Shown one piece after another: positions 8,875 through 13,160 of a stretch of DNA of 64,000 bases. How positions within the stretch are numbered: position 1 is the stretch's first letter; each line of letters opens with the position of its first letter. The notes below the pieces were generated by a model. It saw only the letters and a list, made by a program, of their open reading frames with translations, did no database searches and was not told where the DNA came from. This DNA is from Spirochaetota bacterium (GTDB lineage: Bacteria; Spirochaetota; Spirochaetia; Treponematales; UBA12059), in NCBI GenBank assembly GCA_026398615.1, contig JAPLSN010000016.1, positions 1-64,000 of the forward strand, read 5' to 3'. A program made the position numbers and the translations under genes.

Positions 8875-9879
8875 TCAGCGGAAATCGGTCAGGACTATCG
8901 TGAAGACGAGGGGGGAGTTCGGCGGAATGACGCCGGGTACGCCGCGGGCTCCATAGGCCAGCATCGGGGGGATGACGACGAGGCGCCGTTCGCCCTTGCG
9001 CATCGCCTTCACCGCCGTTTCGAAGCCCGGGATCACGCTCCGGGAATCCAGCCCGAATTCGAGCGGCGCGCCGTCCGATCGGTCCACGAGCCGGCCGCTC
9101 GGCAGCCGGAGCTCGTACTCGACGGCGACCATCGAGCCCGGAGACGGGGTCGGCCCCGTTCCTTCCCCGAGGACGACCGAACGGAGCCCCGATCCGATGT
9201 CCGCGAGTTCCGGGTACTGAAGCTCGATGCGATCCATGGCGCGCCTGGCCGCGGTGGCGCGCAGGCCGTTCCATGCCGTCCGGTCCGTGCGGAACGCCCG
9301 GGCCGCTTCGCCGACCCGGATGATGTCGACGGATACGATAGCGTCGCCGGGCCGGATCGACTCCGCGACATCCTGTCCGGAAACGACGCGGCCGAACACC
9401 GAGTGCAGGTCGTCGAGCCAGGGCGCCGGCCCCAGGGTGATGAAGAACTGGCTGCCGTTGGTTTCGGGTCCGGAATTCGCCATCGAGAGCATGCCCGGGC
9501 CGTCGTGGCGCAGGGAAGGATCGAATTCGTCGGCGAACCTGAAGCCCGGACCGCCCGAACCGTCGCCCGCGGGGTCGCCCCCCTGGATCACGAAGCCCGG
9601 TTCCACGCGGTGGAATGTGAGTCCGTCGTAGAAGCGCCCCCCGCGCGATGACGGGATCGAGCCCTCGGCGAGGCCCGCGAAATTGCAGACGGTCAGCGGG
9701 GCTTTCCCGTACTCGAGCCTTGCGACGATGTCGCCCCGCTCCGTGCGTATCCTCGCGTAGAGACCGTCGGGAAGGGTTCCCGCGGCGTCGCGGCCGGGTT
9801 CGCCCGCCTGCGCGGACGCGCCGAAAACGGCAGATGCGAGCAGGAGGGCGGCGAGAAGGGGCTTGAAAGCGGTTTTCAT
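8875..9879 (-). CDS. Exported cyclophilin-FKBP fusion immunophilin (downstream copy)
   Basis: 334 residues with a signal peptide (about 1-25, ending ASAQAG). The cyclophilin-type PPIase domain (40-200) has [36 protein letters not shown] and VFGRVVSG. An FKBP-type domain fills 235-334, with [36 protein letters not shown] and [11 protein letters not shown]. Dual-family immunophilins of this order are known from Treponema. Both domains should isomerise prolyl bonds, here during folding of exported proteins. It is 4 bp downstream of a paralogue with identical layout, so the two form an operon and a tandem duplication. Confidence 0.9.
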
Positions 9880-9883
9880 CGGC

Positions 9884-10924
9884 TCACTTCACCGACGTGA
9901 GCTTCATCTCGAAGACGAGGAAAGCGTTGCCGGGGATCACGCCGGGCATCCCCACCGGGCCGTACGCGAGTTCGGGCGGGATCGCCACCACGCGTTTTTC
10001 GCCGAGGCGCATCTCCTGGATCGCCAGGTCCCACCCGGGGATCACCTGTCCCGTGCCGAGTTCGAATTCGAATGGCTTGCCGTTGAGGTCGGAGCGGTCG
10101 AATATCCGACCGTCCGTGAGCATGCCCTTGTACTCGACCGTCACCAGCGCGCCCTTCGTCGGTCTAGCGCCCGAACCCGCTTCGAGTATCCTGAAACGCA
10201 GGCCAAGCCGGCCGTCGACGAGGCCGGGCCAGCGGGCGTTGATCTTTTCCGCCTCGAACGTGCGCGCGGCGGCGGCCCGATCGCGCGCTTTCCCGAGCGC
10301 GGCATCCATCAGCGAGTTCCAGGAGGCCTGGTCGGCCTTGTAGGCAGCGGCGGCCGCGCCGACGCGCTGGATGGTCACCTTTTCCATGACGTCGCCCTGC
10401 CTGATGGCGTTCACGGTGTCCTGCCCGGAGACGACGCGGCCGAAGATCGTGTGCTTGCCGTCGAGCCAGGGCGTTTCCTTGTGCGTGATGAAGAACTGGC
10501 TCCCGTTCGTGTTTTCCCCCGCGTTGGCCATGGAGACCACGCCGGGGCCGTCGTGGCGCAGGCCGGGGTCGAATTCGTCCGGGAAATCGTAGCCGGGGCC
10601 GCCCGAGCCGTTCGCGAGGGGATCGCCGCCCTGGATCATGAAATCCTTGATGACGCGGTGGAAGGTCAGGCCGTCGTAGAAAGGCTTGCCCTTGGCAGCG
10701 TCGAGGGTGCCCTCGGCAAGCCCGACGAAATTGCACACGGTCAGCGGCGCCTTGTCCGCCTCCAGCCTGACGACGATCTCGCCGCGCGGGGTCGCTATCC
10801 TGGCGTAGATGCCGTCGGGGAGCGCGGTTTCGGCGGCCTTGGTCTGGCGGCACGAAGCGAAAAGGGCGAAGGCGCAGAGCGCGAGAGCGGCCGCGCCGCG
10901 CCGGGCCGGTGCAGGAATGGTCAT
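9884..10924 (-). CDS. Lipoprotein cyclophilin-FKBP fusion immunophilin (upstream copy)
   Basis: 346 residues. A signal peptide ends in ALFASC, a plausible lipobox, so this copy is probably lipid-anchored whereas its neighbour appears soluble. The cyclophilin domain (35-200) has [40 protein letters not shown] and [10 protein letters not shown]. The FKBP domain (about 240-346) has [37 protein letters not shown] and PPELAYG. Both sets of catalytic-pocket residues look complete. A GGAGGG site precedes the ATG. Two fused, differently exported copies in one operon suggest specialised envelope folding. Confidence 0.9.
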
Positions 10925-11881: not shown

Positions 11882-12742
11882 ATGCGTATTCTCTACATAG
11901 GCGAGATCGTCGGCAGGGCCGGCGTCTTCGCCCTGAAAAAGATGCTTCCGGCGATCAAGCGCGACTATCGCGTCGATTTCACCATCGGGTGCGCCGACGG
12001 GGTCACGGGCGGCGCGGGCGTCGGGAAGGCCCACTCGGTCTACCTCCGCAAGGTCGGCCTGGAAGTCGCCACGACGGGCGACTGCGCCTTCTACAAGAAG
12101 GACATCGTCGAGCAGTTCCCGAAGGCGCCGTGGATGCTCAGGCCCGCGAATTATCCGCAGGGCGTACCCGGGCGCGGTTTCAGGGTCTTTGCCGTTCCGC
12201 CTCCCCAGGGGCAGAAGGCGGGGAGCGGCGCCGTGGCGGTGATCCAGCTCCTGGGCCAGTCCGGATTCACGAGGGTCCACCTGGCAAACCCGTTCCTGGC
12301 GCTCCAGGACATCATCGAACGGGTCAGGCGCGACCTGCGCGATCTCGGGCGGAAGGCCGTGGTCCTGGATTTCCACGCGGCCACGACGGCGGAGAAGCGG
12401 ACGATGTTCGCCTACGCCGACGGGCTCGTGAGCGCCGTGATCGGTTCGCACTGCAGGACCCTCACCGCCGACGCGGCAGTGTCCGCCAAGGGGACCGCTT
12501 CCATCACCGATGCCGGCCGGACCGGCAGCCTCATGTCGGTCGGAGGGATGGACGCGGCGGCGAGGATACGCGAGTACCTGACGGGCGTACCCGAATGGGC
12601 TCGCGACGCCGTGGAAGGTATCGAGTTGCAGGGGTGTCTCGTCGAGACCGATGACGACGGCCACGCCGTTTCCATCGAGACGATCCGGAAGCGCTGCGAG
12701 GAGGTGTTCCATGATCGAACGGGGAATAGTAACGAAGCGTGA
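11882..12742 (+). CDS. YmdB/TIGR00282-like metallophosphoesterase fold protein, ligands degenerate
   Basis: 286 residues. The overall pattern follows the YmdB family of di-metal phosphodiesterases: MRILYIGEIVGRAG at the start, VVLDFHAATTAEK and VIGSHCRTLTAD. In YmdB the metals are held by Asp8, Glu39, Asn40, Asn67, His68, His150, His175 and His177. Here the equivalents appear to be Glu8, Ala38, Asp39, Asp67, Cys68, His165, His190 and Arg192, so only two histidines are conserved. Catalysis by the known mechanism is doubtful. The next gene starts inside its 3' end. The ribosome site is poor and a GTG at 11876 is an alternative start. Confidence 0.7.
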   Translation: MRILYIGEIVGRAGVFALKKMLPAIKRDYRVDFTIGCADGVTGGAGVGKAHSVYLRKVGLEVATTGDCAFYKKDIVEQFPKAPWMLRPANYPQGVPGRGFRVFAVPPPQGQKAGSGAVAVIQLLGQSGFTRVHLANPFLALQDIIERVRRDLRDLGRKAVVLDFHAATTAEKRTMFAYADGLVSAVIGSHCRTLTADAAVSAKGTASITDAGRTGSLMSVGGMDAAARIREYLTGVPEWARDAVEGIELQGCLVETDDDGHAVSIETIRKRCEEVFHDRTGNSNEA

Positions 12743-13160
12743 CGGCCGCGATGTGACGGTGCGGCTCCAGGTGACCGAGGGCTGCGAAGCCTGCGCTTCC
12801 AGCGGGGCCTGCTCCTCGGGCAAGAACGAAGTCGAAGTGTGGGACCGGGACGGCATCGAGCCCGCGGTCGGGGAAACCGTGGATGTCCAGGTCACGACCC
12901 GGCAGCAGCTCGCGGGCGCCCTCCTTCTGGTCGTGGTGCCGCTCGCGCTGTTCGCCGCGGGGTACGGGACCGCCAGGACCCTGCTCCCGGGGTCGGGAGA
13001 GTGGCCCGCCATACTCGGCGGGCTCACCGGCATCATCGTCGGTATTTTCGCGGGCGCCCTCTTCGACCGCCGCCGCAAGCGCGAGTCGATGCCCTTCGTC
13101 CTCAGGAAGGTAGTCGCCGTCGACGGAACGGGCGCCGGAGAGGAGTACGTTTCGCCCTGA
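12711..13160 (+). CDS. RseC/MucC-like membrane protein (SoxR-reducing family)
   Basis: 149 residues. An N-terminal cytoplasmic domain carries a cysteine cluster, Cys25, Cys28 and Cys34 (GCEACASSGAC), as in RseC. Two membrane helices lie at about 65-85 and 98-118 and a basic cytoplasmic tail RRRKRES follows. RseC proteins modulate sigma-E or act with Rnf in reducing SoxR; in spirochaetes the role is not established. The ATG at 12711 has a strong GAGGAGG site. The gene overlaps the YmdB-like gene by 32 bp, so it is probably translated from the same message. Confidence 0.8.
   Translation: MIERGIVTKRDGRDVTVRLQVTEGCEACASSGACSSGKNEVEVWDRDGIEPAVGETVDVQVTTRQQLAGALLLVVVPLALFAAGYGTARTLLPGSGEWPAILGGLTGIIVGIFAGALFDRRRKRESMPFVLRKVVAVDGTGAGEEYVSP

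Follow-up and report, generated by a model that had tools for sequence, protein, structure and literature searches.

The phosphodiesterase YmdB acts on 2′,3′-cAMP. Its Fe(II) site, as laid out in the active-site account of PMC10406935, is built from Asp8, Glu39, Asn40, Asn67, His150, His175, His177, His68 and Asp71, with His177 and Asp8 serving as ligands of the second Fe(II) and His68 and Asp71 being the catalytic residues. The lasso-peptide epimerase MslH, which is treated in the same source, has kept one metal and has lost the second site (PMC10406935). RseC belongs to a different family. The E. coli protein has two transmembrane helices and cytoplasmic cysteines which are able to hold an Fe-S cluster (PMC11729352), and RseC is a putative regulator of Rnf that is required for autotrophy in C. 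ljungdahlii (PMC9124969). Both sources present RseC as an Fe-S membrane protein of SoxR-reducing and Rnf systems (PMC11729352, PMC9124969).

The subject of this study is YmdB2, a second YmdB copy of spirochaetes, which belongs to a known family as a variant and represents neither a new fold nor a new system. No description of a second spirochaete YmdB copy as non-canonical was found among the papers listed by searches of an open-licence library. Near-identical active-site swaps that recur across the group, together with a frequent overlap with rseC, suggest on sequence grounds that YmdB2 in many spirochaetes probably serves for binding or regulation and not as a phosphodiesterase.

The window gene and its canonical paralogue

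The window, i.e., the whole stretch of 64,000 nucleotides that was analyzed, contains ymdB2 and rseC (Table 1). A preliminary description had called ymdB2 a YmdB-like gene, which is right with respect to both coordinates and family: the protein matches the Pfam family PF13277 (YmdB-like protein) with 236.9 bits at a cut-off of 27 and over the complete profile (1–253 of 253). Against NCBIfam TIGR00282 it reached 174 bits, which is below the cut-off of 254.15. The four solved sequence relatives (4b2o, 2cv9, 1t70 and 1t71) are all of YmdB type. An AlphaFold model, calculated from an input alignment of 58 sequences, exhibited a pLDDT of 92.1 and a pTM of 0.91, and B. subtilis YmdB (4b2o) was ranked first for this model by Foldseek (TM-scores of 0.84 for the query and 0.90 for the target), i.e., the model has the YmdB fold. 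The window also contains two prolyl isomerase fusion genes on the minus strand, which are apparently a tandem duplicate.

Table 1. Features of the window that are referred to in the text
Feature	Position	Strand	Description
fusion gene 1	8875..9879	−	cyclophilin + FKBP-type prolyl isomerase fusion (PF00160 + PF00254)
fusion gene 2	9884..10924	−	cyclophilin + FKBP-type prolyl isomerase fusion (PF00160 + PF00254)
ymdB2	11882..12742	+	YmdB-family paralogue, 286 aa, start MRILYIGEIVG
ymdB2 key residues			Glu8, Asp39, Gly40, Asp67, Cys68, Tyr71, His165, His190, Arg192, Arg213 (window numbering)
ribosome-binding-like GGAGG	12700..12704	+	spotted by eye within ymdB2, with 6 nt between it and the rseC ATG
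rseC	12711..13160	+	RseC/MucC-family membrane protein, 149 aa; PF04246 72.1 bits, cut-off 24.4

Residues were assigned with a phmmer alignment of the window protein to B. subtilis YmdB (4b2o), which is gapless from residue 1 to about residue 102. According to this alignment, Asp8, Glu39, Asn40, Asn67 and His68 of YmdB correspond to Glu8, Asp39, Gly40, Asp67 and Cys68, while His150 and His175 are kept as His165 and His190 and His177 is replaced by Arg192. Two further replacements, Asp71 by Tyr71 and Met198 by Arg213, were absent from the preliminary description. Altogether six of the eight active-site residues are changed, the change to Asp39 being a conservative one. This bears out the earlier statement that most metal ligands are replaced, and the same pattern recurs in 128 sequences (108 clusters). 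The ligand list given at that time was correct for Glu8, Asp67, Cys68 and Arg192, but it was one residue off for the equivalents of Glu39 and Asn40, which had been named as Ala38 and Asp39 and are Asp39 and Gly40 in the gapless alignment. The gapless register is supported by the 22 of 128 window-type sequences that have Glu at column 39 itself. A shift of the ligands, which had been named as a possible objection, was limited to this 39/40 register, and no displaced set was present in the motif stretches compared.

The first-metal set Glu39/Asn67/His150/His175 reads Asp39/Asp67/His165/His190 in the window protein, so that the acid and both His are kept and Asn has become an acid. For the second-metal set Asp8/Asn40/His177 the protein has Glu8/Gly40/Arg192, which is not the set of a dinuclear site, and for the catalytic pair His68/Asp71 of the phosphodiesterase it has Cys68/Tyr71. 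The pairs of the MslH type, His68/Asp71 and His177/Asp8, are both lacking as well, being Cys68/Tyr71 and Arg192/Glu8. The claim that only His165 and His190 remain is true for these two residues but overstated the loss, as Asp39, Asp67 and Cys68 could help to hold one metal.

The same genome carries a canonical copy, YmdB1 (G000:C33:35105-35857; PF13277 322.6 bits), with all eight active-site residues, and 90 of 257 aligned residues are identical between the two proteins. Among 58 genomes (the genome of the window and relatives), 42 contained both copies, five only YmdB2, two only YmdB1 and nine neither. The co-presence of both copies in these genomes is significant (p = 8.5e-6), with the signal coming wholly from one family (f3). 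YmdB2 is a protein that is widespread in the class and absent from part of one family. Across the phylum, 186 of 296 sampled genomes matched the window-type profile, canonical copies included, and the best 80 of 328 relatives from the scan were spirochaetes by title, except for two that are titled ‘bacterium’ (L106 and L108). A re-search covered 16 genomes, 14 of the same class and two of other classes, with the second match of G324 and of G284 left out. The 12 same-class genomes for which both copies were read each had one YmdB2 and one canonical copy, and the two genomes of other classes (G083 and G072) each had one window-like and one canonical copy. In the phylogenetic tree, the canonical sequences were set apart with a support of 1.0, and two window-like copies from other classes branched in between. 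The dN/dS values of YmdB2 ranged from 0.034 to 0.219 and those of YmdB1 from 0.035 to 0.204, each calculated for the same 12 genome pairs from four lineages.

The earlier idea of a lost canonical site and a reused fold agrees with the wide spread of the paralogue, the canonical copy next to it in the genome, strong purifying selection and a confidently predicted YmdB fold, whereas the binding or regulatory role that had been attached to this idea is still an interpretation. One copy in genome G324 (L210) has an insertion, lacks the swap pattern (EGMDCSGG) and is possibly decaying. Seven genomes of one family (G035, G040, G043, G046, G048, G051 and G057) have kept RseC, with both YmdB copies being absent.

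Active-site replacements across the YmdB2 group

From 229 proteins, the 185 that were left after removal of duplicates and of sequences shorter than 240 aa were aligned together with B. subtilis YmdB. The rows of this alignment were grouped by whether they keep the eight residues DENNHHHH at positions 8, 39, 40, 67, 68, 150, 175 and 177, with the active-site residues taken from the list in PMC10406935. This yielded 58 canonical rows, one of them B. subtilis YmdB, and 128 non-canonical rows, which are referred to as YmdB2. At most three of the eight residues are left in any of these 128 sequences.

The replacements are not random in kind. Position 8 is Glu in 122 of the 128 sequences (Asp 5, Gln 1), position 67 is Glu in 93 and Asp in 34 (Pro 1), and thereby an acid in 127, and position 177 is either Arg (69) or Lys (57), with single cases of Leu and Gly and no His at all. 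A positive residue at position 177 combined with acids at positions 8 and 67 suggests that Arg/Lys replaces the second metal. The second-metal residues themselves are nearly gone: Asp8 is left in five sequences, Asn40 in three and His177 in none, so that one of them is still present in eight sequences and two of the three together in none. Position 40 has mostly become Gly (85) or Ser (34), next to three Asn and six other residues, and position 39 is Asp in 82 sequences, Asn in 22, Glu in 22 and another residue in two. After clustering at 90% identity, Glu8 was present in 103, Asp/Glu67 in 107 and Arg/Lys177 in 106 of 108 YmdB2 clusters. An error in one genome could be ruled out as the source of the swaps, since the same pattern was found in 108 clusters.

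The catalytic His68 is gone from 127 of the 128 sequences, with position 68 being variable (Cys 60, Lys 15, Ala 14, others 39 including one His). Position 71 is Tyr or Phe in 106 of 128 sequences and an acid in none. However, as this position also varies among the 58 canonical rows (Glu 41, Gln 8, Ser 4, Asp 3, other 2), the swap to Tyr/Phe weighs less than the loss of His68. His is found at position 150 in 107 and at position 175 in 88 of the 128 sequences. With chemically similar residues pooled, the columns at positions 8, 67 and 177 ranked among the more conserved ones within YmdB2 (percentiles 7, 7 and 14) and columns 68 and 152 among the least conserved (percentiles 92 and 90). With respect to a possible charge compensation of column 39, a Lys or Arg at position 68 or 150 accompanies Glu39 in 16 of 22, Asp39 in three of 82 and Asn39 in eight of 22 cases, a count which ignores kinship and is not used as evidence here.

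The group is further marked by residues of its own, namely Arg at the position of B. subtilis residue 198 (123 of 128) and Lys57, His51, Gly48 and Thr42 (each in at least 96% of the 128 sequences). Other residues are shared with YmdB. These are Arg87 (125 of 128), Pro88 (122) and Asn90 (128), which form the RP-x-N motif, and Asp182 (128).

The overlapping rseC gene

In the window, rseC starts within ymdB2, with an ATG that precedes the end of the latter by 32 nt. The encoded protein contains three cysteines (C-x2-C-x5-C) and two hydrophobic segments, which start near residues 65 and 99, and thereby combines the PF04246 match, the cysteine motif and the two transmembrane segments of the RseC/MucC family. 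In the set of 58 genomes RseC was found in 45, and in 37 of the 38 genomes with both proteins its gene follows directly after ymdB2 on the same strand, G034 being the exception. A set of 118 YmdB2 loci, 115 of which are distinct, gave a similar picture: an RseC match adjoins ymdB2 in 88 of the 115 distinct loci, 81 of these 88 neighbours exhibit the motif C-x2-C-x(3–6)-C, and the start of rseC overlaps the stop of ymdB2 in 77 of the 83 loci in which the start could be placed. The most common overlap was 32 nt (34 loci). Among the 46 RseC matches listed, none was found beside a listed canonical YmdB copy. Because ymdB2 and rseC overlap, RseC is the best placed candidate partner of YmdB2.

No RseC match was present beside ymdB2 in 27 of the 115 distinct loci, most of which extend 4–9 kb downstream, with a few ending too early for a verdict. 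In three genomes (G063, G175 and G243) RseC is encoded far from ymdB2. The presence of YmdB2 and that of RseC were not associated across the 58 genomes (Fisher p = 0.24; 0.053 without family f3), as nine of the 47 YmdB2 genomes had no PF04246 match and seven genomes had RseC and no YmdB2. The persistence of YmdB2 where RseC was not found is the main weakness of reading it as a partner of RseC. Rnf was useless as a contrast, with a PF02508 match in 55 of the 58 genomes. Two other clusters that occur in YmdB2 loci, each named by eye from one sequence, are an lptB-like ABC ATPase (43 of 118 loci, at a median of about +5.7 kb) and a CTP-synthase-like protein (23 loci).

Two genera of family f7 have small genomes of 0.9–1.9 Mb, and both kinds of YmdB were present in the three genomes that were read. 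We infer from gene order and size that these genomes belong to the Borreliaceae. Their YmdB2 has no adjoining RseC match, and one of the genomes (G128) has no such match anywhere. At one locus (L228), ymdB2 is flanked by a signal-peptidase-II gene and a small ORF on one side and by a gene of the EPSP-synthase family (murA-like) on the other. An ORF of 75 aa directly before ymdB2 (9769–9996 of this locus, plus strand) appears hydrophobic by eye and has no Pfam match; it might be a stand-in for RseC, or unrelated. Upstream of ymdB2, this locus also encodes an LptA-like protein and an ABC ATPase. We take the Borreliaceae-like YmdB2 to be probably BB_0471. In PMC6711536, BB_0471 is listed among hypothetical proteins and carries an indel of one residue between positions 216 and 261. 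The YmdB2 proteins of the two Borreliaceae-like genera exhibit a one-residue difference within this stretch.

Possible functions of YmdB2 and comparison with known systems

Our preferred reading, to which we would give an even chance, is that YmdB2 is an old, selected paralogue which lacks the phosphodiesterase chemistry of YmdB and acts as a cytoplasmic partner of RseC. Here, Arg/Lys at position 177 would sit where YmdB has its second metal, pairing with Glu8 and Asp/Glu67. The pocket that remains would be stable and bind a ligand or, for roughly two thirds of the sequences, possibly one metal at positions 39/67/150/175. As the operon structure suggests, YmdB2 and RseC would be made together by translational coupling, and YmdB2 would work with this Fe-S membrane protein as its partner on the cytoplasmic side. 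Both may act in the RseC-dependent redox control or in the assembly of Rnf-type complexes. A more specific version, in which YmdB2 is a ligand sensor with Arg/Lys in place of the second metal, is co-translated with RseC, sets the redox activity of RseC/Rnf and has an RseC-free role in the Borreliaceae, is put forward only tentatively.

YmdB2 could also be a rebuilt one-metal enzyme, in which the site 39/67/150/175, often together with Cys68, catalyzes a different reaction, as is the case for MslH. An acid at positions 39 and 67 and His at positions 150 and 175 are indeed present in 86 of the 128 YmdB2 sequences (73 of 108 clusters), 57 of which, the window protein included, have Cys68 in addition, and MslH binds its one metal via the equivalents of Glu39, Asn67, His150 and His175, as described in the metal-site part of PMC10406935. 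However, MslH without the equivalents of His68, Asp71, His177 or Asp8 was inactive in the experiments covered there (PMC10406935), YmdB2 loses His68 and His177, and position 68 drifts. Moreover, 42 of the 128 sequences lose part of the metal set and yet the gene is kept, with ENGEARYR, ENSDLSGR, EDGDQHGR and ENFENDGR being recurring types. As the first site is lost in recurring types that still keep the gene, metal catalysis would not be the selected function across the family, and a binding or regulatory protein is therefore favoured. Overall, a one-metal enzyme appears possible but rather unlikely.

A regulatory role might be directed at YmdB1 instead of RseC, with mixed oligomers tuning the phosphodiesterase activity. 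The 42 of 58 genomes with both copies and nine with neither (p = 8.5e-6) are in line with this idea, and so is the finding of one copy of each kind in the 12 same-class genomes that were read. On the other hand, the joint absences all fall into one family and no association was found outside of it. In the eight genomes that carry both copies on one contig, the shortest distance between them is about 10 kb (G031 and G039), and the gene that is conserved next to ymdB2 is rseC. A regulator of YmdB1 is considered unlikely.

It is very improbable that YmdB2 is still an ordinary phosphodiesterase with tolerated ligand changes. One metal or more could be bound by Asp39, Asp67, His165 and His190, and residue 8 is still an acid (Glu8). 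Yet the window protein has other residues in place of His68, Asn40, Asn67 and His177, and position 177 is Arg or Lys in 126 of the 128 sequences, whereas the 58 canonical rows share all eight residues, being grouped by them. Finally, a functionless, decaying duplicate is hardly credible: the altered copy L210 of G324 (insertion and EGMDCSGG) and one stop flagged within the matched span of the window-type copies of G007, G013, G042 and G329 would fit it, but dN/dS values of 0.03–0.22 in four lineages, group-specific conserved residues and wide retention speak against it, and no stop was found within the PF13277 matches of the 58-genome set, G007, G013 and G042 included. The dN/dS values and the intact reading frames likewise argue against a pseudogene.

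The overlap with rseC provides a candidate soluble partner for the membrane protein RseC. YmdB2 proteins clear by a wide margin the threshold of a family that is named for a phosphodiesterase and are easily mistaken for such enzymes, which their sequences speak against. The systematic swap of Asp/Asn/His to Glu/Glu/Arg would be an example from nature in which a charged side chain has taken over from a metal site. The survival of ymdB2 in very reduced spirochaete genomes offers a testable role for one unnamed conserved gene.

With B. subtilis YmdB (4b2o), the window YmdB2 shares the full-length fold, 91 of 269 aligned residues, the RP-x-N motif and both His150 and His175. It differs from this enzyme in the replacement of Asp8, Glu39, Asn40, Asn67, His68, Asp71 and His177 and in falling below the TIGR00282 cut-off. 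The spirochaete YmdB1, which is homologous throughout and occurs alongside YmdB2 in 42 of the 47 YmdB2 genomes (of 58), has, unlike YmdB2, kept all eight active-site residues. The connection to RseC/MucC (PF04246) and the regulation of Rnf/Rsx is given by rseC being the overlapping gene downstream of ymdB2, whereas the abstracts of PMC11729352 and PMC9124969 name no partner of YmdB type. MslH (PDB 8gq9), as far as its structural description goes, resembles YmdB2 in having a YmdB-like core that has lost the second metal site and is put to another use. However, MslH has kept the catalytic His/Asp pairs and carries an extra domain, whereas YmdB2 is of the size of YmdB and is devoid of His68 and His177.
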